NCBI GenBank assembly: GCA_012840015.1
Contig: DUMF01000019.1
Span: 1 to 33,076, forward strand
From: Bacillota bacterium
GTDB taxonomy: Bacteria > Bacillota > Sulfobacillia > DUMF01
DNA: 33,076 nucleotides
Reading direction: 5' to 3'
The notes beneath the pieces are model-generated. The model made no database searches. It saw nothing but the letters and a program-made list of their open reading frames with translations, and had not been told where the DNA came from. Below, piece after piece: positions 4,320 through 25,903 of the stretch. A program made the translations under genes and the position numbers. How positions within the stretch are numbered: the stretch's first letter is position 1; each line of letters opens with the position of its first letter.

Positions 4320-4394
4320 GCGAGAGTAGTTTAGTGGTAGAACATCGGCTTCCCAAGCCGAGGGCCGCGGGTTCGAATCCCGTCTCTCGCTCCA
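4320..4394 (+). tRNA. tRNA-Gly, anticodon CCC
   Basis: The acceptor stem GCGAGAG pairs with CTCTCGC, with discriminator T and an encoded CCA. The D-arm is TAGTTTAGTGGTAGAAC. The anticodon arm TCGGC / GCCGA encloses loop TTCCCAA, giving anticodon CCC, which reads GGG. The T-arm carries the GTTCGAAT signature. At 75 nt it looks intact and functional, and a strong promoter lies just upstream. Confidence 0.95.
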
Positions 4395-4522: not shown

Positions 4523-4597
4523 GCCGGCGTAGCTCAGCGGTAGAGCAGGCGATTCGTAATCGCCTGGTCAAGGGTTCGATTCCCTTCGCCGGCTCCA
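4523..4597 (+). tRNA. tRNA-Thr, anticodon CGT
   Basis: The acceptor stem GCCGGCG pairs with CGCCGGC, with discriminator T and an encoded CCA. The D-arm is TAGCTCAGCGGTAGAGC. The anticodon arm GGCGA / TCGCC encloses loop TTCGTAA, giving anticodon CGT, which reads ACG. The T-arm has GGTTCGATTCC. The gene is intact. Its 3' 47 bases are repeated, with four changes, about 2.1 kb downstream, so it served as an integration target. Confidence 0.95.
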
Positions 4598-4599
4598 GT
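4551..4599 (+). repeat. att-like direct repeat, copy 1 (tRNA-Thr 3' end)
   Basis: This 49-base segment covers the anticodon arm to the CCA of tRNA-Thr plus GT. It matches 6647-6695 at 45 of 49 positions. An integrating element commonly recombines in a tRNA 3' half and leaves the intact tRNA at one boundary and a copy at the other; this is the tRNA-side boundary. Confidence 0.85.
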
Positions 4600-4721
4600 A
4601 TTCTCAGGGGTTTCCGGATTTGCGGTTGCTTCTTTAGAGGCCCCTGTAGTGCAAGCGTACTGCAACGCGGTGCGGCCCGCTTGATGCAACTATAAGCGCT
4701 GGCCTTCCGGCGGATGTGTGC

Positions 4722-4900
4722 TCAATTGACTTCGTTTGCGGAAGAGCCCTTTTCTTTCCGCCAGAGTGCATTTAGCTTTGCGGCTGCGGCCTTCTTCGGC
4801 TCCAGCAAGACGTGGCTGTATGTATCGAGGGTTGCACTTATAGTTGCTCTGTGAGTGGCGAGAAGCTCTTGCACAACCTTCAAAACACCGACCTTCCTGA
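4722..4900 (-). pseudogene. Tyrosine recombinase (integrase) C-terminal remnant
   Basis: The minus-strand reading contains GVLKVVQELLATHRATISAT and then LDTYSHVLLEPKKAAAAKLN. This matches the end of phage or ICE integrases, where GV.PKVVQE.LGH..I..T is followed by LDTYSHV with the catalytic Tyr. The usual LGH is disturbed (LLATHRA), suggesting a small indel. Everything upstream of this point (the core-binding domain and the R, H, R residues) is missing; an IS110-type fragment abuts it at about 4901. It lies 125 bases from tRNA-Thr and reads toward it, consistent with an integrase that used this tRNA as its attachment site. Not expected to be functional. Confidence 0.75.
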
Positions 4901-5128
4901 GATCCAAAGTTCAAAAAGCTCAATGAGGTATCCTCAAGGGGAGTAAAGGCCTTTCTCCGAACCTTAACCACCATCCCCGGCATAGGCCCTGTGCTGGCTG
5001 GTGGCATTATAGCTGAAATCGGCGATATCTCGCACTTCAGGATTCAAGCCGTACCGGTTCAGTACGCTGGCTTTACCTGGACGGCGTACCAAAGCCAAAT
5101 TCTTTATGCTAGTTTCAGGGATTTCTAA
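4901..5128 (+). pseudogene. IS110-family transposase C-terminal remnant
   Basis: The + strand frame, open from 4901 to the TAA at 5126-5128, contains FLRTLTTIPGIGPVLAGGII followed by AEIGDISHF and QYAGFTWTAYQSQ. This is the transposase_20 domain of IS110/IS116/IS902 elements, where (S/T)IPGIG is followed by AxxxxxEIGD and a YAG segment. The N-terminal DEDD RuvC-like domain is absent and there is no start codon in frame; a TGA sits just before 4901. The sequence stops before the usual C-terminal cysteine/serine-containing block. It is a dead fragment that appears to have truncated, or been joined to, the integrase remnant. Confidence 0.8.
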
Positions 5129-5130
5129 GC

Positions 5131-5199
5131 TTGATTTAAGCTGTGGGTGAAATACTCATCTCATCGAGCGAAGCCGAAGGAGACCATCAAAGGAGGTGA
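5131..5199 (+). promoter_or_regulatory. Upstream region and strong ribosome site of the secreted-protein gene
   Basis: AAAGGAGGTGA at 5189-5199 is a near-perfect anti-16S match placed 6 bases before the TTG at 5206, and it decides that start. TTGATT at 5131-5136 with TACTCA at 5153-5158 (16-base spacer) is a weak promoter candidate; the -10 is poor. Confidence 0.5.
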
Positions 5200-5205
5200 A
5201 GTGCG

Positions 5206-5892
5206 TTGACCAGGAAGACGGCAGTTTACGTTGGCCTGGCATTGCTGCTCGTGCTAGCATTCGCGGGCACTGCGCTTGCACAAACAACGGCTTCGACCAA
5301 TCCCAGGCAAACCGTGTGGCAGCTGTTCCGGTCCAAGCTTGCTGCTAACCTGGGCATAGATGAGACCAGGTTGGACCAGGCTTTCAAGGGTGCGGCAAGC
5401 GAGACGCTGGACGCTGCCGTAGATCAGGGGCTGATACCCAAGGAAAAGGCAGACAAGATGCGCGAGGCAGTGCAGAACGGGCAGTGGCCATGGTTCTGGG
5501 GCGGCCGGGGCTTCGGCGGGCCACGGTTCGGCAACTTCTGTAACGAGCTTGCAGGGGCACTTGGCATGACCTGGCAGGAGCTGACGAACGACCTCAAGGC
5601 CGGCAAGACGTTGGAGGAGATTGCCAAGGCCAAAGGCCTCACGCTGGACCAGCTCAAGGACAAGTGGCTGGCTTCGGTGAAGGCTACCCTGGACCAGAAG
5701 GTGCAAGAAGGCAAACTCACCTCTGACCAAGCGGAGCAAGTGCTGTCTAAGTTGAAGGGAGTGGACCTGACCAAGGTGCCCTTCTGCAAGGGGCCCTTTG
5801 GCAAGGGACCTGGCCGGGGACCCTTTGGGAAGTTCAGGGGTGTTCCTGGTTGGAACAGTAACGGCAACAACAGTAGCGGCAACCAGACCTGA
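5206..5892 (+). CDS. Secreted helical protein of unknown function
   Basis: The 228-residue protein starts with a clear signal peptide: MTRK, then a hydrophobic run (VYVGLALLLVLAFAG) and ALA-Q, a signal peptidase site near residue 25. The mature part has two similar predicted helical units, roughly residues 34-85 (LAANLGIDETRLDQAFK, then AVDQGLIPKEKADKMREAV) and 110-180 (LAGALGMTWQELTNDLKAGK, then KVQEGKLTSDQAEQVLSKLK). A Trp/Gly/Phe-rich linker (WPWFWGGRGFGGPRFG) lies between them. The tail is rich in Gly, Lys, Phe and Asn. No catalytic motif is seen. Similar secreted proteins with repeated LG(M/I)...L helices are common in Clostridia; a function cannot be assigned. It is the only intact gene inside the decayed tRNA-Thr element and has its own terminator. 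Confidence 0.85.
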   Translation: MTRKTAVYVGLALLLVLAFAGTALAQTTASTNPRQTVWQLFRSKLAANLGIDETRLDQAFKGAASETLDAAVDQGLIPKEKADKMREAVQNGQWPWFWGGRGFGGPRFGNFCNELAGALGMTWQELTNDLKAGKTLEEIAKAKGLTLDQLKDKWLASVKATLDQKVQEGKLTSDQAEQVLSKLKGVDLTKVPFCKGPFGKGPGRGPFGKFRGVPGWNSNGNNSSGNQT

Positions 5893-5920
5893 TCGGGATT
5901 AAGCTCTATGAGTGACTTGG

Positions 5921-5958
5921 GTCGACCTCCCGCACGAACTGCGGGGGGTCGACTTGTT
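5921..5958 (+). terminator. Terminator hairpin of the secreted-protein gene, also 5' exon of an intron
   Basis: GTCGACCTCCCGCA (5921-5934) pairs with TGCGGGGGGTCGAC (5940-5953), 14 bp with one wobble and a CGAAC loop, followed by TTGTT (5954-5958). The T-tract is interrupted at 5959 by the GTGCGCCCGG intron start, as expected of group IIC introns that insert just after terminator stems. Confidence 0.7.
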
Positions 5959-6230
5959 GTGCGCCCGGCATCTTACGGGCAGTGGCCACGTAGAACCGCT
6001 AGCCGAGGGCAAGGGTGTATGCGGCGACGCGGAATCCGAAGGGAGCCGGAGGCAAAGCCGCGACCCGAGGAACACGAACCACGAGGGGGCAACGTCGCCT
6101 GGGTGAGCCTGCAATACAAGACAGCGAGGTCTTCTACATCGTGATGCGGGAATATGGGAAAGAAGCTGCGTGCGAAGTCGAGGAAAAGGTCTTTGGAACC
6201 GAGAAGATAAGGATCGCCGACGCTTCGTAG
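5959..6230 (+). mobile_element. Group IIC-like intron, 5' (domain I) fragment
   Basis: It begins with GTGCGCCCGGCAT, close to the GUGUGCCCGGCAU start of the Oceanobacillus iheyensis group IIC intron. In order follow GAGGGCAAGGGTGT, GCGGCGACGCGGAATCCGAA, GGGAGCCGGAGGCAAA, CCCGAGGAACACGAA and GGGTGAGCCTGCAATACAAG. These match the order and spacing of conserved domain I blocks as I remember that intron. The match is clear to about 6125 and weaker beyond; the 3' limit is a guess. No reverse transcriptase ORF and no domain V hairpin are seen before the att-like repeat at 6647, so the intron is truncated and cannot splice by itself. Short ORFs across it are not genes. Confidence 0.75.
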
Positions 6231-6646
6231 GAACGTGTGAAGGCGGCTGCAAACTCAAGGCTGCTGGGGGCTTTCGTTTGCCGATCGCTTTGGAACGCTT
6301 TGGCCCAGAAACCGAACCCAATCCTGGTTACCCGAGCCACCGAAGTCAAGAAGCTTGAAAAGACGTGGGCCTCAAAGTGCTTTGGTTGACGTGAGAGAAG
6401 ACCAAAAGCGACACGACCCGGCTCGAACTTTAGCAGGACTTCGGCTTACCAGCGGCGGAGGTCCGTTTTATACTTAGTCTCCGGAAGCGGCGATGAACTG
6501 CAGACAAGCGGTTTATGCGGGAATGAAAGACCGTTGCCGGACGGGCGACGATTCTGCGCCAAAGACTACGGGGCAGCGAATAGGCAGCCCAGTTCAGCGG
6601 CCATATAGATACGTCATTAGGCTGGCGTCATTAGGCTGGTCCTAAG
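6231..6646. other. Degraded sequence inside the element, no gene recognised
   Basis: No reading frame here has a ribosome site together with a recognisable protein motif. No intron domain V, terminal inverted repeat or tRNA-like fold was seen. It is probably eroded remains of the integrated element or of the intron's distal part. Confidence 0.5.
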
Positions 6647-6695
6647 GATTCGTAATCGCGTGGTCAATGGTTCTATTACCTTCGCCGGCTCCAGT
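6647..6695 (+). repeat. att-like direct repeat, copy 2 (decayed tRNA-Thr 3' end)
   Basis: 45 of 49 bases equal 4551-4599. The differences are C>G at 6660, G>T at 6668, G>T at 6674 and C>A at 6678. The changes fall in the anticodon-arm 3' side and the T-arm, as expected for a copy no longer under tRNA selection. It marks the distal boundary of the integrated element and overlaps the 3' end of the next gene. Confidence 0.85.
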
Positions 6696-7506
6696 CTTTT
6701 TCGGCGCCTGTCCCAGGCCGCGCGAGTTTAATTTCCCCGTTTATGAGCCAGTCTGCGGCATGGCCGAAATCTATGGCAACAGCGTTCTTGAATCGGGCCA
6801 GTTTTTCTGCAAGGATTACCGCGTTTGCGCCTGCCGAAATCAAGGCGATTTGGAAATCCGCGTCTTCCGCGCGTTCGAGTATCCTGGGTATTTCGGTGAA
6901 ACGGCTGATCCCTATGACGTCAACGACATGGCAGCTTAGCTCTCTCTCGAGCAACGGGGCAAGTCGGGGCATCGCGTTGCCTACAAGAAGCACGTCCCTA
7001 TTGAGCAAAAGGCGGGCGAAAGCTGGGTGGGAAGGAAGAGTACGGTTTACGAAGGCATAGCATAGGCGTTTGGGACGGATTTGCCATGCATCGAATAACT
7101 TCTCCGTCATCGGTGCCCAAGCTTCGCACTCTCTTTGGAACAGTACCCCCACAAGATCCGCCCGGGAAACCGCTTCTGCCAATTCGTCTCTGGCCTGAAA
7201 ATCAGGGAGCGCTATGCCGCAGTAAGCGGGGCTTGATCTCCAAGGCACCTGTCTGATCTCTTCAATGGAGAGCAGGATACCCTGCGCCAATACGGCGTTC
7301 TCCCCATCGCCGATTCTTACCATGCTGAATCCTTTCCCAGCTAGGACGGCTTTCTCCAATAGCAGGCAGATTTCGGCTTCGGTCAGAAAACGTGATGGGT
7401 CGATGCTAAAGTGAGGTAGACGTAATCCAGCTTCCATACTACATAATACGCTTCGTTGTTTCGCTCGGGTCAGCAGACGAGCTCGGTAAGTCTGCTCTAG
7501 CGCCAT
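6676..7506 (-). CDS. GT-D fold-like glycosyltransferase
   Basis: The 276-residue soluble protein contains FSMVRIGDGENAVLAQG near residues 60-76, the RIGDGE signature of GT-D type glycosyltransferase domains of Bacillota. A Rossmann-like half follows (LLLNRDVLLVGNAMPRLAPL), then ALISAGANAVILAEKLA and AIDFGHAADWLI. This layout is typical of proteins acting on cell-surface or protein-linked glycans; donor and acceptor are unknown. No signal peptide or membrane segment is seen. The ATG at 7506 has no good ribosome site, so a later start is possible. The last codons (Trp-Ser-Arg-Arg-Arg-stop) are read from the decayed tRNA-Thr copy, and a C>A change there makes the TAA stop. It is divergent from the PIG-L deacetylase gene. 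Confidence 0.7.
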   Translation of the reverse strand: MALEQTYRARLLTRAKQRSVLCSMEAGLRLPHFSIDPSRFLTEAEICLLLEKAVLAGKGFSMVRIGDGENAVLAQGILLSIEEIRQVPWRSSPAYCGIALPDFQARDELAEAVSRADLVGVLFQRECEAWAPMTEKLFDAWQIRPKRLCYAFVNRTLPSHPAFARLLLNRDVLLVGNAMPRLAPLLERELSCHVVDVIGISRFTEIPRILERAEDADFQIALISAGANAVILAEKLARFKNAVAIDFGHAADWLINGEIKLARPGTGAEKDWSRRR

Positions 7507-7553
7507 GCTATGGTATCATCTGTCTGTAGGCTTATGACGGGGTGGCATGACTG

Positions 7554-8450
7554 GTGTCCTGGAGGATCCTCGCGTGGATAGCAGGCGGGATTGTGGTGAT
7601 CATGCTTGTGGGATCGCTTAGGCTGGCTGTCGCCACGCTAAAGTCACTCTCCAAGCGAGACGGCCGCCAGGGTTGGCGGGCCCTTAGACTGTTACTCAGC
7701 TTGTTTGGCGTTCTTCTAGGTACCTATTCGTTATGGTTTGCGTGGCCCATGTTGACTGGCAGGCGGCCAATGCCGAAAAACCCTGCCCTCGCAAGAGCCC
7801 TGGGGGAACCCATCACCAGAAGCGGACTATCGATAATGGTTGTGGTGGCCCATCCTGATGATGCCGAGTGGTATTGCGGAGGGACGGTGGCGAGAGCACT
7901 CGGAGCTGGCTCAAGAGTGACTGTAGTGGTGGCGACTGACGGTGAACGAGGGCGAGGCGCGCCGGACCCGGAAACGCTCTCCGTAATCAGGCGGAAGGAG
8001 CAGGAGGAGGCTGCGCGCATCATGGGATATACGAGGGTGGTTTTCCTTGGCATCCCGGATAGAGGGGTCTCTCGGGCCAGGGACCTCAAGGCTCGCGTTG
8101 CCGCGCTGTGGGATGAAGTCAAACCCGACGCTGTACTCACCTTTGATGCAGCCTTCCCGGCCAGACCTTACATACATCCCGATCATCAGGCCGTCGGTCG
8201 GGCCGTGCTGAAGCTTCTCGCCGAAAAACGGGTGCAGCCAGCGGTCTTATATCTCTTCAGCTCGTCCTCGCCGGATGCAGCCGTCGACATCACGACTTTC
8301 GTCGAGCGCAAGCTGGCTGCACTACAAGCTCACCGCACCCAGTTTGGCATGACAGGAGGCCGTGGCGCTATAGAACAAAACCACGCCTCGGGCAAGGCGG
8401 TAAACTTCACTTACGCCGAATTGTTCCGCGTCGTTTCGCCATTGCCTTGA
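7554..8450 (+). CDS. Membrane-anchored PIG-L/LmbE-family deacetylase
   Basis: Members of this zinc-dependent family remove acetyl groups from N-acetylglucosamine-type sugars. The 298-residue protein has two N-terminal hydrophobic segments (about residues 5-27 and 45-65), then the catalytic domain: VVVAHPDDAEWYCGGT near residue 97 (AHPDDAE metal site and catalytic Asp), VVVATDGERGRG, RRKEQEEAARIMG, and IHPDHQAVG (the second metal-binding His). All key residues are present. The GTG at 7554 follows a GGGGTGG site. Only 47 bases separate it from the divergent GT-D-like gene, so the two may share control and act on a common glycan; this is inference. The substrate is unknown. Confidence 0.88.
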   Translation: MSWRILAWIAGGIVVIMLVGSLRLAVATLKSLSKRDGRQGWRALRLLLSLFGVLLGTYSLWFAWPMLTGRRPMPKNPALARALGEPITRSGLSIMVVVAHPDDAEWYCGGTVARALGAGSRVTVVVATDGERGRGAPDPETLSVIRRKEQEEAARIMGYTRVVFLGIPDRGVSRARDLKARVAALWDEVKPDAVLTFDAAFPARPYIHPDHQAVGRAVLKLLAEKRVQPAVLYLFSSSSPDAAVDITTFVERKLAALQAHRTQFGMTGGRGAIEQNHASGKAVNFTYAELFRVVSPLP

Positions 8451-8487
8451 AGACTAACTGGTCTCAACATCTCAGGCGGGTCGCCGC

Positions 8488-8516
8488 TTGCAAAACTAGA
8501 TGGTTCGTTGTATTCT
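8488..8516 (+). promoter_or_regulatory. Promoter of the dtxR-feoA-feoB operon
   Basis: TTGCAA (8488-8493), a 17-base spacer and TATTCT (8511-8516). The predicted start falls inside the palindrome at 8519-8536, so a bound repressor would block initiation. Confidence 0.65.
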
Positions 8517-8518
8517 GA

Positions 8519-8536
8519 TGTTAGGCAAGCCTAACA
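8519..8536. promoter_or_regulatory. DtxR-type metal-responsive operator
   Basis: TGTTAGGCAAGCCTAACA has perfect 8-bp arms around AA. It resembles the DtxR/IdeR half-sites TTAGG...CCTAA. It lies just after the -10 element and upstream of a DtxR-family gene and feoAB, indicating iron-dependent autorepression. Confidence 0.85.
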
Positions 8537-8602
8537 ACACTGGCGATAACCTGCTGCACAGAGCGCTCGGCGATGCGAATTACATCGGGGAAGGGTGTGG
8601 CG

Positions 8603-8989
8603 ATGAGTGGATCTAGGGTAGTGTCTTCATCGATGCAGGACTATCTGGAAGCCATTCTCAATCTTTCTGAAGAGAACCCGTCCGTACGGGTTACGGACAT
8701 CGCAGAGCGGCTCCATGTTGCAAAGGCCAGTGTAAATGAGGTGTTGGGCAATCTGAAGGAAATGGGCCTGGTATTTCAGGAGCGTTATGGCCCTGTCTCG
8801 CTAACGCCTGCGGGACGGGAATACGCTATTGAGGTGCGGAGACGCCACGGCCTTTTGCTGCGGTTTCTTACCGATGTTCTCGGGGTTGATCGGGTTACCG
8901 CAGAAAAAGATGCTTGCCGCATGGAACACGCTGTAAGCCCGCAGACCATAGAGAGGCTAGTGGGTTTCCTGGAAAAGTTCAATCAGTGA
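8603..8989 (+). CDS. DtxR/MntR-family metal-dependent transcriptional regulator
   Basis: Predicted iron- or manganese-sensing repressor. The 128-residue product has an N-terminal winged helix-turn-helix (SMQDYLEAILNLSEENPSVR, then VTDIAERLHVAKASVNEVLG) and a metal-binding/dimerisation domain with GREYAIEVRRRHGLLLRFL, VDRVTAEKDACRMEHAVS and TIERL. The C-terminal SH3-like domain of DtxR/IdeR is absent, so the length is that of MntR-like members. The ATG at 8603 is chosen because GGGGAAGGG lies 7 bases before it; an upstream in-frame ATG at 8573 has no ribosome site. feoA follows after 14 bases. The gene context (FeoAB) and the palindrome favour iron over manganese as the co-repressor; this is inference. 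Confidence 0.9.
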   Translation: MSGSRVVSSSMQDYLEAILNLSEENPSVRVTDIAERLHVAKASVNEVLGNLKEMGLVFQERYGPVSLTPAGREYAIEVRRRHGLLLRFLTDVLGVDRVTAEKDACRMEHAVSPQTIERLVGFLEKFNQ

Positions 8990-9003
8990 AGAGGGGAGCT
9001 AGT

Positions 9004-9348
9004 ATGTGGGGAAAGCATAGATTTCGCCGTGGACAATATGGTATGAGCCCGGCCAGGTCAGCGGCGAGGTCGGCGCACTTACTATCGCTTGCGGAGCTCA
9101 GACCAGGAGAGAGAGGCAGAATAGTGAGTTTGCGCGCGCCGGGACCGGTGCTACGCCGGCTCCTGGAAATGGGCGTGCTCCCCGGTACGGAGATCGCGGT
9201 TAAGGGAGTGGCTCCACTTGGGGACCCGATGGTCATCGCAGTGAAAGGGTATCGCCTAAGTATCAGGAAGTATGACGGGAGTGGGGTGCTAGTTGAGCCG
9301 ACGGGCACTGACCGTATTTTATATACAAAAGATGTTAGTAACTCCTAA
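9004..9348 (+). CDS. feoA: Ferrous iron transport protein A
   Basis: Small SH3-like cytosolic partner of FeoB. The 114-residue product contains SLAELRPGERGRIVSL, APGPVLRRLLEMGVLPGTEI and then AVKGYRLSIRK, the typical FeoA core. The 30-40 residue basic N-terminal extension (MWGKHRFRRGQYG...) is longer than in most FeoA proteins. The ATG at 9004 has GAGGGGAGCT just upstream; the longer frame from 8914 would overlap the regulator gene extensively. It lies 14 bases after the DtxR-type gene and 37 before feoB. The stop codon is inside a DtxR-box-like sequence. Confidence 0.9.
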   Translation: MWGKHRFRRGQYGMSPARSAARSAHLLSLAELRPGERGRIVSLRAPGPVLRRLLEMGVLPGTEIAVKGVAPLGDPMVIAVKGYRLSIRKYDGSGVLVEPTGTDRILYTKDVSNS

Positions 9349-9367
9349 CTAAATTAGTAAACCCTAA
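9334..9367. promoter_or_regulatory. Two degenerate DtxR-box-like repeats between feoA and feoB
   Basis: GTTAGTAACTCCTAAC (9334-9349) and TTAGTAAACCCTAA (9354-9367) each carry TTAG...CCTAA half-sites spaced as in the perfect box at 8519-8536, with degenerate centres. A possible promoter precedes them (TTGAGC 9293-9298, TATTTT 9315-9320, 16-base spacer). They may give feoB separate iron control. Confidence 0.45.
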
Positions 9368-9385
9368 CTGGAGCTGAGGCAGCAG

Positions 9386-11311
9386 GTGATTGGCAAAATG
9401 CCTACCTTAGCACTTGTGGGTAACCCGAATGTCGGGAAGACTTCGATGTTTAACGGCCTGACGGGCTTACGTCAGCAAGTTGGAAACTGGCCCGGGGTCA
9501 CGGTCGAGAGGAAAGAAGGAGAGCTCAAGGTAGCGGGACAGAAAGTGAACGTGGTAGACCTGCCCGGGATTTATAGTCTAAGTGCGTCTTCGGAGGATGC
9601 CAGGGTGGCAAGGGACTACATAATAAACGAGAAGCCTGACGTATTGGTGAATGTGGTCGATGCCACCAACCTGGCCAGAAACCTCTATCTCACAGTTCAA
9701 CTGCTGGAAATGGGAGCCAATATTGTTGTGGCTCTGAACTTCATGGACGAACTTGAAAAAAGCGGTCTGAAAGTGGATGCAGTACGGTTGGAAAAGCTGC
9801 TCGGGGTGCCCGTCGTTCCCACGTCGGCCAAGACAAAAGAAGGATTGAAAGAGCTGGCGAAGCACGCTCTGACTGCAGCGCACTGTCGGGGGCGCAGACT
9901 GCAGCCTCTGAAACTACACTATGCTGATGGGGTGGAGGAGAAGATCAAAGAGCTAGCTTTGCCTAGGTGGGAGGCTCTCAAAAGACTCGAAACTGAAGAG
10001 GCTGGCTCGGATGACTATGCAGCCGCCATAGCGCAGGCACGCTATCGGTTCATCGAAGATGTCGTGAGGCAAGTGCTGGTGCAGACTCAGGACAAGGACC
10101 CACTTAGCTTAACTGACAAGATAGACCGTCTGGTCGCCGATAGCTTTTGGGGGATTCCGCTGTTCTTTCTCGTCGTGTGGGCAGTGTTCCAGTTTACTTT
10201 CAAGATGGGCGAGCCACTGGTCGGATTGGCCCAAGGATTATGCGGGCTTGCAGCGGATTACGCACTTAGATCAATGACGGAGCTTGGGGTACCAGATCCC
10301 TTAGTATCGCTGGTCGTGAGCGGCCTCATCCCGGGAGTGGGATCTGTAATTTCTTTCACTCCCAATATTTTTCTCCTGTTTTTTGCCATCTCTCTTCTCG
10401 AGGATAGTGGGTACATGGCGCGCGCGGCTCACATCGCTGACAGGTTCATGAGCAGCATGGGGCTTCATGGCAAGGCATTCATACCGATGGTGCTTGGCTT
10501 TGGATGCAACGTGCCCGGCATAATGGCTGCGAGAACCCTCGGGAACCGGAGGGATCGCATCATAACGATTCTCCTCATACCGTTTATGTCATGTATGGCG
10601 AGGTTGCCAATCTACGTTCTCTTCGCGGGCACGTTCTTTAGAGACAGTCAAAGCCTGGTCATTCTAGGGTTGTATGCTCTGGGTGTCGTGCTAGCGCTAC
10701 TAATGGGCAACCTGTTCGGCCGGTTGTTATTCGAGTCGGAGCCTTCCTATTTTATCCTGGAGTTACCCCCCTACCGCTTTCCTTCCATTCGAGTTTCAGT
10801 CATCCGTGCCTGGCAAAAAGCAGCTGCTTTCGTCAATAAGGCAGGGACCTCCATAACCGGGGCAGCTGCGTTAGTCTGGTTACTATCCAATCTGCCGTGG
10901 GGAGTGCCATACGCCAGCGACTCAAGCGTGCTTGGAAGGATCGGTCGCTTAATCGCCCCCTTGCTTAGGCCAGCCGGCTTCGGGACCTGGGAGGCAGCGG
11001 CAGCGCTTATCTTTGGGTCCATGGCCAAGGAACTGGTGGTGAGCACGTTGGGGATTGTATATCGTGCAGAGGGGGCGGCCTTGAGCCAGGTGATTGCGCA
11101 GCGGTGGACCCCAGGCAACGCTCTTTCCTTCATGGTGATGAGCCTGATATATATGCCGTGTGTAGCAGTAATGGCCACCATCAAAAAGGAGACGGGGTCC
11201 TGGAAATGGGCGGCGTTTGCGGCCATTTGCAGCGTTTCGTTGGGATGGCTGATGGCCGTGCTGGTGTTTCAAGGGATCAGGCTCTTGGGCTTGTTGCCCT
11301 ACGGGAGATAG
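9386..11311 (+). CDS. feoB: Ferrous iron transporter FeoB
   Basis: GTP-gated Fe(II) uptake protein of the inner membrane. The 641-residue protein has an N-terminal G domain: G1 GNPNVGKTS near residues 12-20, G3 DLPGIYSLSASSED, G4 NFMDE. A helical GDI-like region follows, then a polytopic membrane domain with the paired Gate motifs (FTPNIFLLFFAISLLEDSGY, KAFIPMVLGFGCNVPGIMAA) and SMAKELVVSTLG. Slightly short for FeoB but complete. Start: GTG 9386 with GAGG 6 bases upstream; the ATG at 9398 (MPTLALVGNPN) with AGGTG upstream is equally reasonable. No FeoC gene follows. Confidence 0.97.
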   Translation: MIGKMPTLALVGNPNVGKTSMFNGLTGLRQQVGNWPGVTVERKEGELKVAGQKVNVVDLPGIYSLSASSEDARVARDYIINEKPDVLVNVVDATNLARNLYLTVQLLEMGANIVVALNFMDELEKSGLKVDAVRLEKLLGVPVVPTSAKTKEGLKELAKHALTAAHCRGRRLQPLKLHYADGVEEKIKELALPRWEALKRLETEEAGSDDYAAAIAQARYRFIEDVVRQVLVQTQDKDPLSLTDKIDRLVADSFWGIPLFFLVVWAVFQFTFKMGEPLVGLAQGLCGLAADYALRSMTELGVPDPLVSLVVSGLIPGVGSVISFTPNIFLLFFAISLLEDSGYMARAAHIADRFMSSMGLHGKAFIPMVLGFGCNVPGIMAARTLGNRRDRIITILLIPFMSCMARLPIYVLFAGTFFRDSQSLVILGLYALGVVLALLMGNLFGRLLFESEPSYFILELPPYRFPSIRVSVIRAWQKAAAFVNKAGTSITGAAALVWLLSNLPWGVPYASDSSVLGRIGRLIAPLLRPAGFGTWEAAAALIFGSMAKELVVSTLGIVYRAEGAALSQVIAQRWTPGNALSFMVMSLIYMPCVAVMATIKKETGSWKWAAFAAICSVSLGWLMAVLVFQGIRLLGLLPYGR

Positions 11312-11450
11312 TAAAGTGCCATAAGGCAGTAGCACCGCTCAGCCCAGCCCCCATTATGCTCTCATGACGTAGAAGGTATTGGTCATACTGGGCGCGAATC
11401 GAATCACGGATACCATCTGGCTCAAGCTTTCGAGGATGGGAGGTGGACCC

Positions 11451-11995
11451 GTGTGGCTATGGCCATAACCGTTTCGTTCTTGATTGGTAGCATACCCACA
11501 GGTTATCTGGCTGGTTACATCTGGGCTCGCCGCGATCCGAGAAGGGTGGGGTCGGGTAACGTTGGGGGGATGAACGTTCTCAGGAATATTGGGATTGTAC
11601 CGGGGATATGCACTATTCTATTAGATATTGGAAAGGGCGTCCTGGCTGCGGTGCTATCGAGAGGGCTGTGCGGCGGTCCCACGGCATGGGTGGCTCTGCC
11701 CGCTTGCGTGGCTGGACATAACTGGATGCCATGGTTGGGCTTTCGCGGCGGTAAGGGTTTGGCGGTGTCGGGCGGGGCTCTCATGGTATTGCATTTCGGC
11801 GCTGCCGCTGTGGTTTTCCCGTTACTGGGTGCGCTGACACTGGCGTTAAGGAACGTCGATTTGGCAAGTCTGTTGAGCTTTTCACTTTTGCCTTTCCTTC
11901 TTAAGGCGTGGAGAATGGATTGGGGAGTCGTGCTGGCCGCCGCCCTGGTTCCTATAGAGTATTTACTCCGGACTATTCCCGGCAAAAAGGAGTGA
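11451..11995 (+). CDS. plsY: PlsY-like glycerol-3-phosphate acyltransferase
   Basis: PlsY transfers an acyl group from acyl-phosphate to glycerol-3-phosphate, the first step of phosphatidic acid synthesis, in the membrane. The 180-residue protein has about five hydrophobic segments and the three family motifs: IGSIPTGYLAGY, GSGNVGGMNVLRNIG (usual form GSGNxGATNxxR) and GHNWMPWLGFRGGKGLA. The Met in motif 2 where Thr is usual, and the absence of partner genes, leave room for a paralogue rather than the main enzyme. GTG 11451 or 11453 follows GGGAGGTGG (11440-11448); the in-frame start is GTG 11453, so the first two bases given here are marginal. The DUF4013 gene starts 10 bases after its stop. 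Confidence 0.82.
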
Positions 11996-12005
11996 GCATC
12001 TGTCT

Positions 12006-12650
12006 ATGGGGGAAATGCAACGCTGGTTCTTGATCCCGCTGAGCGACAGGAATTGGTGGCTAAAGAACCTCATCGGAGGAGTGGTTTCGTTTCTCCCTGT
12101 CGTTGGGTGGCTAGCGGGGGGATATGAGGTAGAGGTGATCAGAAACACACAACGAGGAAAGCCCAGTATGCCTGAGTGGGATGATTGGCTGAGGAAATTC
12201 GTCGACGGGTTGATGGTGTCTTTGATATACTTCGTTTATTTGCTCGTACCCATGATAATCGGACTTCAAGGAGCCAACGACGCAGCTGGACGGATCCCGG
12301 GGCTCACAGGCATCAGTGGCGGAAGCCTTTTCGGCAAGAGCATATTGGCAAACGCACTCGCTTTTGTGTTCGGCGCATTCGTACCGTTCGGGATAGTGAA
12401 TTTCGCCAGCAGCGGTTCGCTTAAATCTGCCTTCCAAGCGCGGGCGATACTGCGTGACATCCAGAAAGTAGCGCCATGGTACATACTATGCTATGCGGTT
12501 TTCCTGGCGGTGAGCTGGATGATAGCTGCGGCTTTGCAGATGCTTCCTGCAGGCACTTTGCTATCGAGCTTCGCCAACTTTTATCTTCAGGTAGTCTTTA
12601 GCGGGATTTTCGCGGAGTTGCATCTTGAAGCTAAACGCCTTCCAGGTTGA
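12006..12650 (+). CDS. DUF4013-type membrane protein
   Basis: The 214-residue integral membrane protein has four or five hydrophobic segments (about residues 22-38, 70-87, 110-135, 155-180 and 190-205). The N-terminal FLPVVGWLAGGYEVEVIRNT and PEWDDWLRKFVDGLMVSLIY match the DUF4013 pattern (GY..E..R, then LPxW.dw...f..G). No function is established for the family. The AAGGAGTGA at the plsY stop is 13 bases from the ATG, a little far, but no better start is seen. It is probably co-transcribed with the plsY-like gene. Its last 20 bases overlap the 3' end of the convergent radical SAM gene. Confidence 0.8.
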   Translation: MGEMQRWFLIPLSDRNWWLKNLIGGVVSFLPVVGWLAGGYEVEVIRNTQRGKPSMPEWDDWLRKFVDGLMVSLIYFVYLLVPMIIGLQGANDAAGRIPGLTGISGGSLFGKSILANALAFVFGAFVPFGIVNFASSGSLKSAFQARAILRDIQKVAPWYILCYAVFLAVSWMIAAALQMLPAGTLLSSFANFYLQVVFSGIFAELHLEAKRLPG

Positions 12651-13536
12651 AAGGAGGGGTGAAACGGGAGTCTGCTGAGTCAAGTTCCTGGACGTAGCCG
12701 TCCTCCAGGCCCAACGAGTATAGTTCGTCCAAAACCATCTCGTATTCCCTCGAAGAGATTTTGCGGGAGAGGTCGAGATACCGTGAAGCTCTGTACATCG
12801 GGACATATTGCGACATCAGACTCACCAGAACCGATCCTTTAAGTTCAGTGGCGATCCACCGCAGCACCTCGATGGAGTCGTCTGCGTGTCCGGGTAGTAC
12901 CAGGTGGCGTACGATCACTCCCCGGGTTATAAGCCCATTCTCGTCGAAAACAGGCTTGCCCGCGATTTCTACCATGGTGCGTATCGCTGTAGTGGCTATA
13001 CGGAAATAGTCGGGTGCCGATGAACACCTGCGCGCGAGGGTATCGTCGAAGTATTTTAAATCGGGCAAGAAAACGGAGACGCGCCCCTTTAAGGCATGTA
13101 GAGTTTCCGGATTCTCGTAAGCGTTCGTATTGTACACGACCGGGATTCGGAGCCCCTTCGAGGAAGCTATATCCAGCGCTTGAAGTATAATTGGAGCATA
13201 TGGAGTCGGGGAAACCAAATTCACGTTGTGTGCACCCTTCTCCTGAAGCTCCAGAAAGATCTGTCCCAGTCTCTCAGCAGACACGTCGCTGCCGAAGCCT
13301 TCTTGGCTTATGTCGTAGTTTTGGCAGAACACGCAACGCAAGTTGCACCAACTGAAGAACACCGTCCCAGAACCCCTACGACCGCTTATGCAAGGCTCTT
13401 CCCAATGATGGAGTGCCGCTCTAGCCACCCGGGCGCGATGACCGGCGCGACAAAAGCCTCTCTGTCCGGCGATTCGGTTTACTCCGCACCGTCTAGGGCA
13501 TATAGTGCATTGTTCCAGAGGATTGCTCACAGTCAA
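12631..13536 (-). CDS. Radical SAM protein, PflX/COG1313-like
   Basis: The 301-residue predicted SAM-dependent [4Fe-4S] enzyme is related to pyruvate formate-lyase activating enzymes. The N-terminus has a cysteine pair region CTICPRRCGVNR and GFCRAG. The radical SAM motif CNLRCVFCQNYDIS is at about residues 64-77, followed by NLVSPTPYAPIILQAL, VYNTNAYEN, FLPDLKY and RHLVLPGH. These blocks are characteristic of COG1313. The physiological substrate of this group is unknown and no glycyl radical enzyme gene is nearby. The TTG start at 13536 sits directly after a TATAAT on the same strand, so either a downstream start (GTG 13530) or a leaderless transcript is possible. It is convergent with the DUF4013 gene and divergent from the P1 peptidase gene. 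Confidence 0.85.
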   Translation of the reverse strand: MTVSNPLEQCTICPRRCGVNRIAGQRGFCRAGHRARVARAALHHWEEPCISGRRGSGTVFFSWCNLRCVFCQNYDISQEGFGSDVSAERLGQIFLELQEKGAHNVNLVSPTPYAPIILQALDIASSKGLRIPVVYNTNAYENPETLHALKGRVSVFLPDLKYFDDTLARRCSSAPDYFRIATTAIRTMVEIAGKPVFDENGLITRGVIVRHLVLPGHADDSIEVLRWIATELKGSVLVSLMSQYVPMYRASRYLDLSRKISSREYEMVLDELYSLGLEDGYVQELDSADSRFTPPFNLEGV

Positions 13537-13552
13537 ATTATACTCTTATACT
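13523..13552 (+). promoter_or_regulatory. Candidate promoter of the P1 peptidase gene
   Basis: TTGCTC (13523-13528), an 18-base spacer and TATACT (13547-13552), about 50 bases before the ATG at 13602. It overlaps the start of the divergent radical SAM gene, where TATAAT lies on the minus strand at 13542-13537. Confidence 0.4.
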
Positions 13553-13601
13553 CTAGAAAACAGGGTTTGGTACCAGACACCATATGTGCGGGAGGCCAGT
13601 T

Positions 13602-14600
13602 ATGAACGATCTCATTACGGACGTTGAAGGGATACGCGTAGGACATGCCGACAACCGCGAAGCGCTAACGGGTTGTACTGTGTTCCTTTTTGAAGGCGGT
13701 GCGGTGGCGGGTTGCGATATACGGGGCGGAGCGCCAGGAACGCGGGAGACAGACGTACTCAGACCGGAGGCTGCGATTAAACGAATCCACGGGTTAGTGT
13801 TAAGCGGCGGAAGCGCATATGGACTGGCTTCGGCAGGCGGGGTTATGAGATACTTAGAAGAACGTCGAATAGGCCACGATGTGGGTGTGGCGGTAGTACC
13901 TATTGTTCCGGCAGCAGTGATATTCGATCTGTCGCTGGGTCGGCACGACGTGAGGCCCGATGAGGCAATGGGTTATGCAGCTTGTCTGGCGGCTACCGAT
14001 GGTAAATTCGAACTGGGTTGCGTAGGGGTGGGGATGGGAGCGAGCGTGGGTAAGCTTAACGGCATCCGCCTGGCGATGAAAAGTGGTGTAGGCAGCGCTT
14101 CAGCTTCCATTAAGCTGGGTGGTCTAACGGTGACTGTCGGCGCTTTTGTGGTGGTAAACGCTGTCGGCGATGTAATAGATCCGGCAAACGGTAACATACT
14201 GGCGGGGGCTAGAAAACCGGGTGGCGGCTTTCTAGGGACCGTAGGCGCGGTGATGCGTGGTACTCCCATTCGCCGGCGTACCAACTCTTCCGATGTTTTG
14301 GAGAACACCACCCTCGTAGTGGTCGCTACAGACCTCGATATTGATAAGGTAGAGGCCACAAAAATCGCGCAGATGACCCATGATGGAGTAGCCAGGTGCA
14401 TTTCGCCCGTCCACACTCTGGTGGATGGTGACGCGGTATTTGCCGTGGGGACCGGGGCGGTCCGGCGTTCCGGAGGGGATCCGGATGCTTCAGTCCTTGG
14501 TACTGTGGCTGCTGAGGTGACAGCAAGAGCAATCGTTAAGGCGATAATGGCGGCCGAGCCGTTAGGAGGCCTGCCGAGTCACGGGAGCATGTGGGGCTGA
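13602..14600 (+). CDS. P1/S58-family peptidase (DmpA-like)
   Basis: Family members are N-terminal-nucleophile aminopeptidases or beta-peptidyl aminopeptidases that self-cleave into two chains. The 332-residue protein shows ITDVEGIRVGHA at the start, GGAPGTRETD, GLVLSGGSAYGLASAGGVMR, and ENTTLVVVATD near residue 232. In this last block the Thr/Ser after Asn is the expected autocleavage nucleophile (known of the family). DGDAVFAVGTG follows near the C-terminus. The ATG at 13602 is 6 bases after GGGAGG, which decides the start over ATG 13584. Monocistronic by position: divergent from the radical SAM gene, convergent with the SdpI-like gene. The natural substrate is unknown. Confidence 0.88.
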   Translation: MNDLITDVEGIRVGHADNREALTGCTVFLFEGGAVAGCDIRGGAPGTRETDVLRPEAAIKRIHGLVLSGGSAYGLASAGGVMRYLEERRIGHDVGVAVVPIVPAAVIFDLSLGRHDVRPDEAMGYAACLAATDGKFELGCVGVGMGASVGKLNGIRLAMKSGVGSASASIKLGGLTVTVGAFVVVNAVGDVIDPANGNILAGARKPGGGFLGTVGAVMRGTPIRRRTNSSDVLENTTLVVVATDLDIDKVEATKIAQMTHDGVARCISPVHTLVDGDAVFAVGTGAVRRSGGDPDASVLGTVAAEVTARAIVKAIMAAEPLGGLPSHGSMWG

Positions 14601-14720
14601 AGGTGGCCCTCGGAGTGCTCGCCCGCCCCGGACCTGGCGTGACTCTTCTACACCCGTGACTGAAATCCTTTCTTGGCCCAGCGTCGGAGAACGCTGCGAC
14701 ACGTGGTCCGGCACTATCAC

Positions 14721-15380
14721 CTATGTCTTCGAGGGCCCATTGTGAGACTTTCTAAACAGGATATATGAGTACAGCACAGGCATCAGGGCTGCTGCCATAA
14801 TTAGCCCGATGTGCATGACAGCCGCCAACGGCACGTGGAAGGGGAGGGTCGCAAGCGAGAGGATCGCTCCCAGGACCATCGTCTTTGAACCGAACTGGTG
14901 GGTCTTGCGCCAGTTCTCTTCGTCCGACAGGGTCCATGGCGTCCTGATGCCCAAGAACCAGTTTGGCCTGACCTTTGTGAGCTGGTCGCCGATGAGTAGC
15001 ACAATTAGCGAGATTCCTAGCCGTACCAGGACACCCACGTTCAACAGGTAGCCCAGACCCGCCATGATTATTATGAGGTATATACCGTTCATAAACATGA
15101 TGATCGCCGTCGTTATGAGTCGATAAGTGCCTTCGAACTGCTTGTACGAAGCCTTCCTGGGGTCGATTTCGGGTAGGTACAAGAACAACGCATATAGAGC
15201 GAGTGTCAGCGCAGGAAAGAAGAATACCGCGAAGGTCTTACCGGAGTATCCGTCCACCTCACCCCTGAAGTTCCAGTGCGTGGGCACCCTTTCGGCCATT
15301 CTCGGGTAGGCCCATATCCCAAATGCCAGGCACATCAGCGTTATGGCTACTGGCAGTACGTTGCCCCTTACTACTCTCAT
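14721..15380 (-). CDS. SdpI-family membrane protein (DUF1648 and SdpI domains)
   Basis: The 219-residue protein has about six membrane segments. The N-terminal part has YPRMAERVPTHWNFRGEVDG, the DUF1648 pattern (lP.HwnxxGevDg). The C-terminal half has GDQLTKVRPNWFLGIRTPWT and ENWRKTHQFGSK, the SdpI signature (N.....GIRTPWTL....W..th). In Bacillus subtilis SdpI gives immunity to the SdpC toxin and acts in signalling; many homologues have no known toxin. No sdpC-like gene is visible. The ATG overlaps the stop of the upstream small ORF (ATGA), and GGGGAGGG lies 9 bases before it, so translation of the two is probably coupled. Confidence 0.88.
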   Translation of the reverse strand: MRVVRGNVLPVAITLMCLAFGIWAYPRMAERVPTHWNFRGEVDGYSGKTFAVFFFPALTLALYALFLYLPEIDPRKASYKQFEGTYRLITTAIIMFMNGIYLIIIMAGLGYLLNVGVLVRLGISLIVLLIGDQLTKVRPNWFLGIRTPWTLSDEENWRKTHQFGSKTMVLGAILSLATLPFHVPLAAVMHIGLIMAAALMPVLYSYILFRKSHNGPSKT

Positions 15381-15652
15381 CCGCCTTGACCCTCCCCTTC
15401 AGGTTCAACGGTGACCTGGTCGACGATCACGAAGAGCCGGCCAGCGCCGGTGGACGTCTTCGCGAATAGCCGGGAGTTGCCTCTGCCGTTTCTGCGCAGG
15501 TCGGTAACTGCTCGTTTAATGATCTCGCCGGGGACCTCGCGTATGAGCGGCGACTTGATGTCTTTACAGGAATTGTACCACCCGCAGACCATCTTAAACC
15601 CTGGGACCGATTTCCAAAAGTGAACTCCCGGCCCAAACGCCTGGCAGAACAC
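15377..15652 (-). CDS. Small hypothetical protein coupled to the SdpI-like gene
   Basis: A 91-residue frame from GTG 15652 ends in the ATGA overlap with the SdpI-like start. The C-terminal 60 residues look like a folded domain: REVPGEIIKRAVTDLRRNGR, then SRLFAKTSTGAGRLFVIVDQ and an acidic tail. The N-terminal 25 residues, with two cysteines and aromatic residues, may not be translated; an internal ATG at 15592 is possible. It is not an ArsR-type SdpR regulator and has no signal peptide. The start is uncertain (only AAGG 8 bases upstream). I do not recognise the family. Confidence 0.45.
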   Translation of the reverse strand: MFCQAFGPGVHFWKSVPGFKMVCGWYNSCKDIKSPLIREVPGEIIKRAVTDLRRNGRGNSRLFAKTSTGAGRLFVIVDQVTVEPEGEGQGG

Positions 15653-16077
15653 ACGTCGAGCCTTGACAAGAGTACCAATTCAACAAGCTCTACTGTACAC
15701 CTGCATTTGCATACTACAAAGCAACTAAGAAGCAATCTGGGAATTCCTAAGCAAAATGGTAAAGAGGAGAGGGGTTACTGAGTTTGACCGAAAAAGTGGG
15801 CCGCCGTTCAGTGGGAGGCCTGAAGGCGGCCGCCAACCGCGGAACCGGGCCGAGTGGTAACTTATAGTTAACGCTTGACCCGGCGCTGAGGATGGTAAAC
15901 ATTATTGGCTCAGAGCCAATAGGATATGATTGACTTGAATTATACATACCCATACCTTAAACGTCAAGAACTGTGTGAAGCAGAATGGGTGCAATGGCCT
16001 GATCAATCGTGAGCCAAAACAGTCTGACACTTTTTGACGTTTCTTTTGAATGGGCGTACGTGACGATAGCAGTGTGG
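15653..16077. other. Gene-free region upstream of scfA with several symmetric sequences
   Basis: No convincing coding frame. It contains a perfect palindrome at 15903-15921, a TTGACT/TACCTT promoter-like pair (15930-15958, 17-base spacer, weak -10) and a 9-bp inverted repeat AAACGTCAA (15959-15967) / TTGACGTTT (16034-16042). The promoter of the small ORF/SdpI-like pair, read leftward, should also lie in the left part; no strong match was seen. Confidence 0.5.
15903..15921. promoter_or_regulatory. Palindromic operator candidate
   Basis: TATTGGCTC, A, GAGCCAATA: perfect 9-bp arms with a one-base centre, 8 bases upstream of a TTGACT -35-like element at 15930. It has the form of a repressor or activator site; the binding protein is unknown. 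Confidence 0.4.
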
Positions 16078-16083
16078 TATAAT
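16075..16083 (+). promoter_or_regulatory. Extended -10 promoter for scfA
   Basis: TGGTATAAT with a perfect TATAAT at 16078-16083, 31 bases before the scfA start. No good -35 at 16-18 bases, so it depends on the extended -10. The TGTGGTATAAT string is the same as before tRNA-Thr. Confidence 0.55.
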
Positions 16084-16114
16084 CTCTGTGCGAGCGTGAT
16101 TGGAGGGATTAACG

Positions 16115-16264
16115 GTGGCAGGTCAGCCGGTACATATAAAGCCCGTGACGATCTCGGAAGGTGCTCGGGACGAAAAAAAGACTGAGTGCGAAGGTTGCGA
16201 AGCTTCGTGTCAGACGGCATGCAAGACATCATGCACAGTCGGAAACCAGGTGTGCGAAGAGTAA
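16115..16264 (+). CDS. scfA: SCIFF (six-cysteine) ranthipeptide precursor
   Basis: A 49-residue peptide starting at GTG with GGAGGG 7 bases upstream. The C-terminal part CEGCEASCQTACKTSCTVGN ends with QVCEE. The six cysteines are at residues 25, 28, 32, 36, 40 and 47, the defining spacing of SCIFF peptides (six cysteines in forty-five residues) found across Clostridia. Known of the family: a radical SAM/SPASM enzyme links a Cys sulfur to a Thr carbon (thioether). TACKTSCTV, which holds candidate Thr acceptors, is well conserved here. The N-terminal 24 residues are a leader slightly longer than usual. The maturase gene scfB follows after a hairpin. Confidence 0.93.
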   Translation: MAGQPVHIKPVTISEGARDEKKTECEGCEASCQTACKTSCTVGNQVCEE

Positions 16265-16283
16265 ACTCTGCGACACGAGCATC

Positions 16284-16315
16284 TGCCCTCGCCCGTGCGG
16301 GGCGGGGGCATTATC
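16284..16315 (+). terminator. Partial terminator/attenuator between scfA and scfB
   Basis: TGCCCTCGCCC (16284-16294), loop GTGCG, GGGCGGGGGCA (16300-16310), 11 bp with one wobble, followed by TTATCATATCT. The weak T-tract suggests partial termination, which would yield more scfA than scfB message. Confidence 0.6.
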
Positions 16316-16369
16316 ATATCTAATCTAACGATCGTGATGGCTGAGGCAGAAAAAGAGAGGTCCGCGTTT

Positions 16370-17761
16370 ATGAATCCCCAAGTTCACGTTTTCGCGATAA
16401 ATGGTACTTCAATAGCGCTGGATGTGGGCAGCAGCAATCTGTTCGTAGTGGACGAGGAAGCGGTGCGAGCGTTACGCGTACTGGCTCAGGAAAGAGGCTA
16501 CGAGTTAGATGGGACTTCCCCTGGGAAAGAGCACTGCGATGGGGCTGCATACCAAGAAGTTCGCGAGCTCGTCGACAGAGGGTGGCTGTTCAGCGCGGAC
16601 CATGGTGTGGAGGCGGCGCGAATGTTCAGGGGCAGGCCGTGGCATGGCCCCCGCGCGCTGTGCTTCAACATAGCTCATGCCTGCAATATGAACTGCGCCT
16701 ACTGCTTCGCTTCTGCTGGTACTTATCGTGCACCGGCGATCATGCCCCTCGAAGTGGCGGAGAGGGCTGTTGACTTCCTTATTGAGGGGTGGCCCGGAAA
16801 GCGTTGCGAAATCGATTTCTTTGGGGGCGAGCCTTTACTCGCATGGGATACCATGGTGCATACGATTGTATACGCGGAAGAACGAGCTGCCAGGAGAGGC
16901 AAACGCATAAGATTCACGTGCACTACTAATGGTACCCTTCTAACGGAAGAAAAGCTTCAGTTTTTCGACGATCATAGGGTGGCGCTCGTGGTCAGCTTGG
17001 ACGGGCGACCGGAGGTGCATGACGCTCTTAGATGCCTCAGAGAAGGTGGGGGAAGTTACGCTCGAGCGTTGAGGGGTGCTCAAATGGTGGCCATGCGAAG
17101 AGGCGGGAAGGAGGGCGCTAACGGAGAATATGGTAGCATGGGTGGTTACTATGTAAGAGGGACCTACACTGCTCGGAATCTCGACTTCTACGAGGACGTA
17201 AAACATCTGGTACAGCTGGGATTGAATAAAGTCTCGTTGGAGCCTGTGGTTGCAGATCGGAAGGCGCCCTATTCCATAGAAAAGAGGCATTTGCCTGCTA
17301 TAGCCGCGCAGTACGATCGGCTGGCCGAGTTTTATCTCGAAAGATGGAGGTCGGGAAGCCCGTTCCGTTATTTCCATTTCGAGCTCAAGTTGCGCGATGG
17401 GCCGTGCCTCATGAAGCGCGTGGCTGGTTGTGGTGCTGGAGTGGACTATATGGCGGTGGCACCCGATGGTACGCTGTGGCCCTGCCACCAATTCGATGGT
17501 AGAGAGGGATACCAACTTGGGGACGTATGGCAAGGGATTACGCGAAAGGAAGTACAAGATGCTTTCCGGCACGCTACTCCCATCGACAAGAACGCATGCC
17601 GTACTTGCTGGGCCAGGTACCTTTGCGGGGGAGGGTGTCACGCCAACGCCGCACAGTTCAATGATAGTATCTTCCAACCGTGGGAGTTGGGTTGCGAAAT
17701 ACAAAAGATCAGGCTCGAAAGGGCCCTTTATGTTCAAACGATGATGAAGCAGGGTAAGTGA
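16370..17761 (+). CDS. scfB: SCIFF maturase, radical SAM/SPASM protein
   Basis: Installs the thioether crosslink in the SCIFF peptide (known of the family). The 463-residue protein opens with MNPQVHVFAINGTSIALDVG, the peptide-recognition region. The radical SAM cluster motif CNMNCAYCFASAG lies near residue 108, followed by IDFFGGEPLLAWD. The C-terminal SPASM domain has GCGAGVDYMAVAPDGTLWPC near residue 355 and CRTCWARYLCGGGCHANA near residue 412, supplying ligands for the auxiliary Fe-S clusters. ATG 16370 is chosen because GAGAGG lies 9 bases before it and the length fits; the longer frame would start inside the intergenic hairpin. The histidine kinase gene starts 10 bases after its stop. 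Confidence 0.95.
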   Translation: MNPQVHVFAINGTSIALDVGSSNLFVVDEEAVRALRVLAQERGYELDGTSPGKEHCDGAAYQEVRELVDRGWLFSADHGVEAARMFRGRPWHGPRALCFNIAHACNMNCAYCFASAGTYRAPAIMPLEVAERAVDFLIEGWPGKRCEIDFFGGEPLLAWDTMVHTIVYAEERAARRGKRIRFTCTTNGTLLTEEKLQFFDDHRVALVVSLDGRPEVHDALRCLREGGGSYARALRGAQMVAMRRGGKEGANGEYGSMGGYYVRGTYTARNLDFYEDVKHLVQLGLNKVSLEPVVADRKAPYSIEKRHLPAIAAQYDRLAEFYLERWRSGSPFRYFHFELKLRDGPCLMKRVAGCGAGVDYMAVAPDGTLWPCHQFDGREGYQLGDVWQGITRKEVQDAFRHATPIDKNACRTCWARYLCGGGCHANAAQFNDSIFQPWELGCEIQKIRLERALYVQTMMKQGK

Positions 17762-17771
17762 GGGGACAGCC

Positions 17772-19523: not shown

Positions 19524-19562
19524 ATGGGAAGATCACGAATTAGGATGGGGAGGAGGGCAAAC

Positions 19563-20927: not shown

Positions 20928-20974
20928 GTGAGAACTAGTTTGCACAATTGCGAATAAGCTTTCACACGTCAATG

Positions 20975-20995
20975 GTCCACAAATAAAGCTTGGAC
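20975..20995. promoter_or_regulatory. Candidate enhancer (UAS) for the sigma-54 activator
   Basis: GTCCA (20975-20979), 11 bases, TGGAC (20991-20995): an inverted repeat centred about 118 bases upstream of the expected sigma-54 start. Two AAGCTT-containing repeats (20956-20961, 20986-20991; 30 bases apart) overlap the area. The position suits an NtrC-type enhancer; the arms are short, so this is tentative. Confidence 0.35.
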
Positions 20996-21016
20996 TTACA
21001 TTCAAGATTGAATAAC

Positions 21017-21054
21017 GGCCAGCGTTTAGTCAAAACGCTGGCCGGTTGCTTTTT
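21017..21054 (+). terminator. Rho-independent terminator after the sigma-54 regulator gene
   Basis: GGCCAGCGTTT (21017-21027), loop AGTCA, AAACGCTGGCC (21033-21043): a perfect 11-bp stem followed by GGTTGCTTTTT. It separates the scfAB-kinase-regulator unit from the sigma-54-driven genes. Confidence 0.85.
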
Positions 21055-21076
21055 ACCCCTGCATTCGAGATGTCGA

Positions 21077-21092
21077 AGGCACAGAACTTGCA
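21077..21092 (+). promoter_or_regulatory. Sigma-54 (-24/-12) promoter
   Basis: AGGCACAGAACTTGCA has GG at 21078-21079 and GC at 21090-21091 with exactly 10 bases between, matching TGGCAC-N5-TTGCA closely. It is 57 bases before the AtoE-type start and directly downstream of a sigma-54 activator gene. Confidence 0.85.
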
Positions 21093-21148
21093 TGACAAAC
21101 TGTTCAGAAAAGTGTGTGCGAAAATTTCAGGAAAAGAGGAGGGGTAAA

Positions 21149-22507: not shown

Positions 22508-22551
22508 GGGTATAGGATTATCCAACATTCTCAATTTAGGAGGGGGAGATC

Positions 22552-23733: not shown

Positions 23734-23738
23734 AGCTT

Positions 23739-23815
23739 GACTCGCCGCCTTGAAACGCCAAGGAACGACGTAATCGCAGAAGCAAAGAAAGGACTCGCAG
23801 GCGGCGAGTCTTTTT
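23739..23815 (+). terminator. Long-loop terminator after the thiolase gene
   Basis: GACTCGCCGCCT (23739-23750) pairs perfectly with AGGCGGCGAGTC (23799-23810), then TTTTT. The 48-base loop is unusually long for a simple terminator and may fold separately. Confidence 0.75.
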
Positions 23816-23829
23816 GCGTTCGCCCAGCA

Positions 23830-24130: not shown

Positions 24131-24264
24131 TAGCGCTGCCTTACTCGTCTGTATTCTTTTGGTAAAAACATTATGTGTTGGAAAAGAATATGCTGGATAT
24201 AGTAAAATATGCATGTATTGTGTTTCATCCACCAGGAAAAGGAAAACGGGGAAAGGAGACGGGA

Positions 24265-25840: not shown

Positions 25841-25903
25841 GGCCTTGGTAGCTGCAGGATATGCGGCGAAGAAAGTAGAATCACCTTTCTAGAGGTGTGC
25901 TGT

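Follow-up and report, generated by a model that had tools for sequence, protein, structure and literature searches.

Organization of the tRNA-Thr(CGT) locus

The window, meaning the whole stretch of DNA that was analysed, comprises 33,076 nt of the forward strand of contig DUMF01000019.1 (assembly GCA_012840015.1); its genome is labelled G000 below. An intact tRNA-Thr(CGT) gene lies near one end, and part of it recurs 2 kb downstream. The features that bear on this arrangement are as follows.

4320–4394, + strand: tRNA-Gly(CCC), called by ARAGORN; together with purA upstream it marks the conserved purA–tRNA-Gly–tRNA-Thr locus
4523–4597, + strand: tRNA-Thr(CGT), intact (ARAGORN; Rfam tRNA, 70.8 bits); its 3′ part forms the proximal copy of the probable att repeat
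4551–4599, + strand: proximal copy of the repeat, spanning the tRNA from its anticodon loop to its 3′ end and 2 bp beyond (repeat search, BLAST)
4722–4905, − strand: C-terminal remnant of a tyrosine integrase, about 52–60 codons, with 43–55% identity to the C-termini of intact integrases
4905–5130, + strand: 3′ remnant of a transposase gene of the IS110 family, directly adjoining the cut integrase (PF02371, E = 2.9e-6)
5206–5892, + strand: intact 228-aa ORF bearing a signal peptide, with a weak match to DUF2680 (PF10925, below cut-off)
5917–5956, + strand: strong terminator-like hairpin behind the 228-aa ORF (−30.6 kcal/mol)
5959–6120, + strand: truncated group II intron (5′ fragment) that has lost 26 bp internally (RF02001, 44.8 bits at 6018–6197)
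6126–6394, + strand: VapC-type PIN-domain gene of which the C-terminal part survives, broken by a frameshift and a stop; identified by its match to G012:C448
6647–6695, + strand: distal copy of the repeat, a probable displaced tRNA-Thr 3′ end with four changes (repeat search, BLAST, alignment of relatives)
6676–7506, − strand: GT-D-like gene (PF22882), beyond the repeat-bounded interval
24175–25650, + strand: LysM-G5-M23 peptidase gene, a class-wide neighbour of tRNA-Thr, displaced here by 19.6 kb

The earlier note on this DNA had described a 49-bp repeat of the 3′ part of tRNA-Thr(CGT), and that repeat stands. Positions 4551–4599 and 6647–6695 are identical at 45 of 49 bases (the repeat search itself returned 4551–4602 and 6647–6698, 52 nt at 90%), and comparison of the tRNA 3′ half with the 28 kb downstream by BLAST gave a single match, with E = 2.6e-13. 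By a binomial estimate, the chance of a 45/49 match anywhere in the 33 kb, on both strands, is ~2e-17. An ungapped scan found no third copy in the rest of the window: the best downstream match, 25/49, is at chance level, and the best match elsewhere (31/49) falls inside tRNA-Gly. The distal 3′ fragment lies downstream of the intact gene in the same orientation, and the repeat begins in the anticodon loop, a known att sublocation (sublocation classes: PMC4383910).

The polarity of the four differences was read from an alignment with the tRNA-Thr(CGT) genes of 18 relatives. The proximal base is present in 15/18, 17/18, 9/18 and 18/18 relatives at the four columns, and the distal base in 0/18 throughout. 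At the column with 9/18, the other nine relatives carry A; at the first differing column, T occurs in three relatives and the distal copy has G. Because the distal base is found in no relative, and the proximal base is common or shared with A, the proximal copy is the conserved one and the distal copy is derived. All four differences are thus changes in the distal copy, as had been claimed from the window alone.

The integrase remnant and a prophage at a second tRNA-Thr

Behind the tRNA gene lies the integrase remnant (VGVLKVVQELLATHRATISATLDTYSHVLLEPKKAAAAKLNALWRKEKGSSANEVN*), in which the usual LGH motif is degraded to LATH. Its coding part ends 128 bp behind tRNA-Thr(CGT) and faces the tRNA. 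The 58-aa remnant is below detection by Pfam; a 52-aa piece, compared with integrase C-termini in 21 other genomes of the class, showed 43–55% identity, with a best E of 8.7e-7. Among the 30 best homologue loci in the class, which include one from the window's own genome (the prophage described below), 22 have a convergent tRNA less than 500 bp from the C-terminal end of the integrase, at a distance of 27–408 bp (median 113). In one relative, G026, a full-length tyrosine integrase lies behind the orthologous tRNA-Thr(CGT), and the C-terminal match ends about 128 bp from the tRNA. A repeat of the tRNA 3′ end was found behind tRNA-Thr at none of the other loci examined, several of which have less than 3.1 kb of downstream sequence.

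The genome has a second example of this layout at tRNA-Thr(TGT), in the form of a temperate prophage of 39 kb that looks intact (G000:C13:45434-84495; loci L023, L133 and L134). The 3′ end of this tRNA recurs 39 kb away with 47/47 identity, and the att repeat so formed opens at the same point of the tRNA as the repeat in the window. The prophage integrase is 76 bp behind the tRNA gene, and PHROG families for terminase, portal, head morphogenesis, tape-measure, major tail and endolysin proteins are matched by ORFs of the prophage. The prophage and the interval at tRNA-Thr(CGT) share the amino-acid specificity of the tRNA, the att start, the placement and orientation of the integrase and the broad integrase family. 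However, the prophage is intact, is 39 kb long and has identical att copies, its integrase is only distantly related to the remnant, and a comparison of its integrase-proximal part with the interior revealed no DNA similarity. A PIN-domain gene adjoins the prophage integrase. In another family of the class, G041 (locus L089) has, likewise behind tRNA-Thr(TGT), an integrase that shares 90% identity with the prophage enzyme, which suggests that this type of prophage may have spread recently.

The distal copy could also be what is left of a second, complete tRNA-Thr gene that arose by duplication and then decayed, having nothing to do with att recombination. Eight bases at 6621–6628 (GCTGGCGT) do resemble the tRNA 5′ end, but a shuffle test shows this resemblance to be no better than chance (local p = 0.75, global p = 0.53), and on this test a whole-tRNA duplication was rejected. 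Upstream of the distal copy the tRNA 5′ half is absent (6/28 ungapped matches; local alignment p = 0.75), whereas 92% of the 3′ half is kept; ARAGORN makes no tRNA call on the distal fragment, which is too decayed. The breakpoint falls at the anticodon loop, as it does in the prophage, and the integrase remnant is in the expected place. A duplication of the whole gene is consequently exceedingly improbable. By contrast, three facts are explained together only by an att scar that an element with a tyrosine integrase left behind: the same-orientation 3′ tRNA fragment breaks at the anticodon loop, the C-terminus of an integrase lies next to the tRNA and points towards it, and a second tRNA-Thr of the genome carries an intact element laid out identically.

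Contents of the 2-kb interior and a proposed model of its decay

The integrase and IS110 remnants that had been reported inside the interval are both present (at ~4722–4905 on the − strand and ~4905–5130 on the + strand, respectively). However, that inventory was incomplete, as it omitted the 5′ fragment of a group II intron, a vapC pseudogene and the intact ORF for a putative secreted protein of 228 aa. No feature was assigned to the stretches 4600–4721 and 6395–6646. At the DNA level the IS110 remnant is 72% identical to a further copy in the genome (G000:C28:58854-58998). Homologues of the 228-aa ORF, whose signal peptide was read by eye, occur in 59 of 154 genomes of the class, and neither an integrase nor a tRNA was found in the flanks compared at the five best homologue loci. 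The ORF stands out as the intact exception among otherwise broken genes.

Class C group II introns favour terminator hairpins. The intron fragment starts directly after the hairpin (5959), stops at ~6120 and is 96% identical to a longer copy at G000:C6:22429-22580. Its domain I sequence (RF02001) and its position directly after a terminator-type hairpin make it class C-like. No group II intron 3′ domain scored above cut-off in the window, and no reverse transcriptase was matched on this contig. An intron 3′ end suspected by eye at 23.8–24.1 kb neither matches Rfam nor resembles the other intron copies, and was discarded. One family of group II introns is distributed across the class, with members in the window, on contig C6 of the same genome and in G022, G004 and G021. 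The sequence at 6126–6394 was also considered as part of the intron and rejected; its match to the PIN gene of G012 identifies it as a vapC remnant, with 75% DNA and 53% protein identity to the intact protein in G012:C448. The intact gene in G012 has a MazE/AbrB-type antitoxin gene upstream. Phage structural, packaging or lysis genes, which would mark a prophage specifically, were not found among the identified ORFs and remnants of the interior.

With both att copies present, one cargo-like ORF intact and a length of ~2 kb, which is the lower length limit in island searches (PMC4383910), the interior might be taken for a complete small element, such as a satellite or a cassette mobilised in trans. 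However, each of the integrase, IS110, group II intron and vapC pieces has suffered truncation or a frameshift, as would be expected of decay in steps, and the intact relative in the same genome is 39 kb long. We regard a complete small element as highly improbable.

The geometry of the repeat, the placement of the integrase and the prophage in the same genome together support the earlier proposal that the interval is what remains of an integrative element, and we consider it very likely that positions 4551–6695 are the scar of a decayed element at tRNA-Thr(CGT). The repeat with its breakpoints, the remnants and the matching layout of the prophage are observed directly; that an element integrated, in what order it decayed and how large it once was are inferences. 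The tyrosine integrase of an integrative element (prophage, ICE or island) would have acted on the anticodon-loop region of tRNA-Thr(CGT), where the element recombined with the chromosome. The attP of the element would have brought a new 3′ half that kept the tRNA gene complete, and the former 3′ half would have been moved to the far end of the insert. An IS110 insertion or a deletion may then have stripped the integrase to its last ~60 codons; a group II intron would have arrived and later been truncated, the vapC gene would have been cut and most of the cargo deleted. What remained would be the ~2.05 kb between the att copies, with one intact gene for a putative secreted protein. The displaced tRNA fragment, presumably free of selection, would have acquired its four changes. 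The att core had no match in the viral and genome contigs searched.

Sequence beyond the probable scar and wider context

The GT-D-like gene beyond the scar ends inside the distal repeat (6676–6695) and so takes its final codons and its stop from sequence of tRNA origin; no relatives of the GT-D protein were found in the named-genome search. It had been proposed that an empty site would show tRNA-Thr directly before this gene. That adjacency proved not to be ancestral. The order purA–tRNA-Gly–tRNA-Thr is widely kept in the class, with the tRNA-Gly–tRNA-Thr pair at 17 of 18 loci that have tRNA-Thr(CGT), and in seven relatives (G003, G004, G011, G013, G022, G024 and G034) the LysM-G5-M23 gene follows 0.4–3.8 kb behind tRNA-Thr, often with walR–walK next. 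The comparison genomes are class-level relatives. In the window the M23 gene begins only at 24175, with walRK at 25895–28383. Since M23, and not GT-D, follows tRNA-Thr in the class, what lies past the distal att copy differs from the tRNA's ancestral neighbour, and the history of this junction is more complex than one insertion.

The gap between tRNA-Thr and the M23 gene is 19.6 kb here (4600–24174), of which the scar makes up the first 2.1 kb and other sequence the remaining 17.5 kb. When this gap is set against the 0.4–3.8 kb of the seven relatives, the whole of it could be read as a tandem array of islands in which the copy at 6647 is a middle att. However, the absence of a third att copy (best match 25/49, chance level) extends to the 441 bp before the M23 gene (p = 0.26), and a rearrangement over class-level distance explains the gap equally well. 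Moreover, the sequence from 7 to 24 kb encodes PIG-L, DtxR, FeoB, PlsY, a two-component system, a fatty-acid transporter and a thiolase. These are ordinary chromosomal genes, and the remaining 17.5 kb as a whole has normal composition and GC content. We therefore think a tandem array unlikely. The 17.5 kb past the scar may represent a separate rearrangement or an older insertion, both of which are possible. Another suggestion, offered tentatively and rather doubtful, is that the 228-aa DUF2680-like gene is retained (domesticated) cargo, useful enough to have kept the scar in place as its surroundings decayed, or that tRNA-Thr(CGT) is an accretion point that has taken in 19.6 kb between two neighbours otherwise conserved.

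The configuration of the scar is a common one. Islander recorded anticodon-centred att sites in 2083 islands and 3′ fragments in 3760, and a same-orientation 3′ fragment downstream of its tRNA is the signature used in island searches (PMC4383910). The scar shares with the tRNA-integrated islands and prophages of Islander an intact tRNA gene, a downstream 3′ fragment and an integrase between them (PMC4383910). However, the Islander search requires an integrase ORF, and the scar has a C-terminal remnant only, so that a search of this type might well miss it. Partial tRNA copies arising from integration are expected and pervasive in prokaryotic genomes (PMC9897764), and the scar resembles the tRNA gene fragments left by mobile elements in that account, with nothing essential different.

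The scar is an ordinary fossil of a well-known process, and it leaves the general understanding unchanged. What it offers is a clean trace of site-specific integration from a bacterial class that has been sampled poorly; alongside the prophage on contig C13, it records that integrative elements have used tRNA-Thr genes more than once. The locus also illustrates the shrinkage of an island through IS, intron and deletion events, to a product that searches requiring an integrase ORF may overlook.
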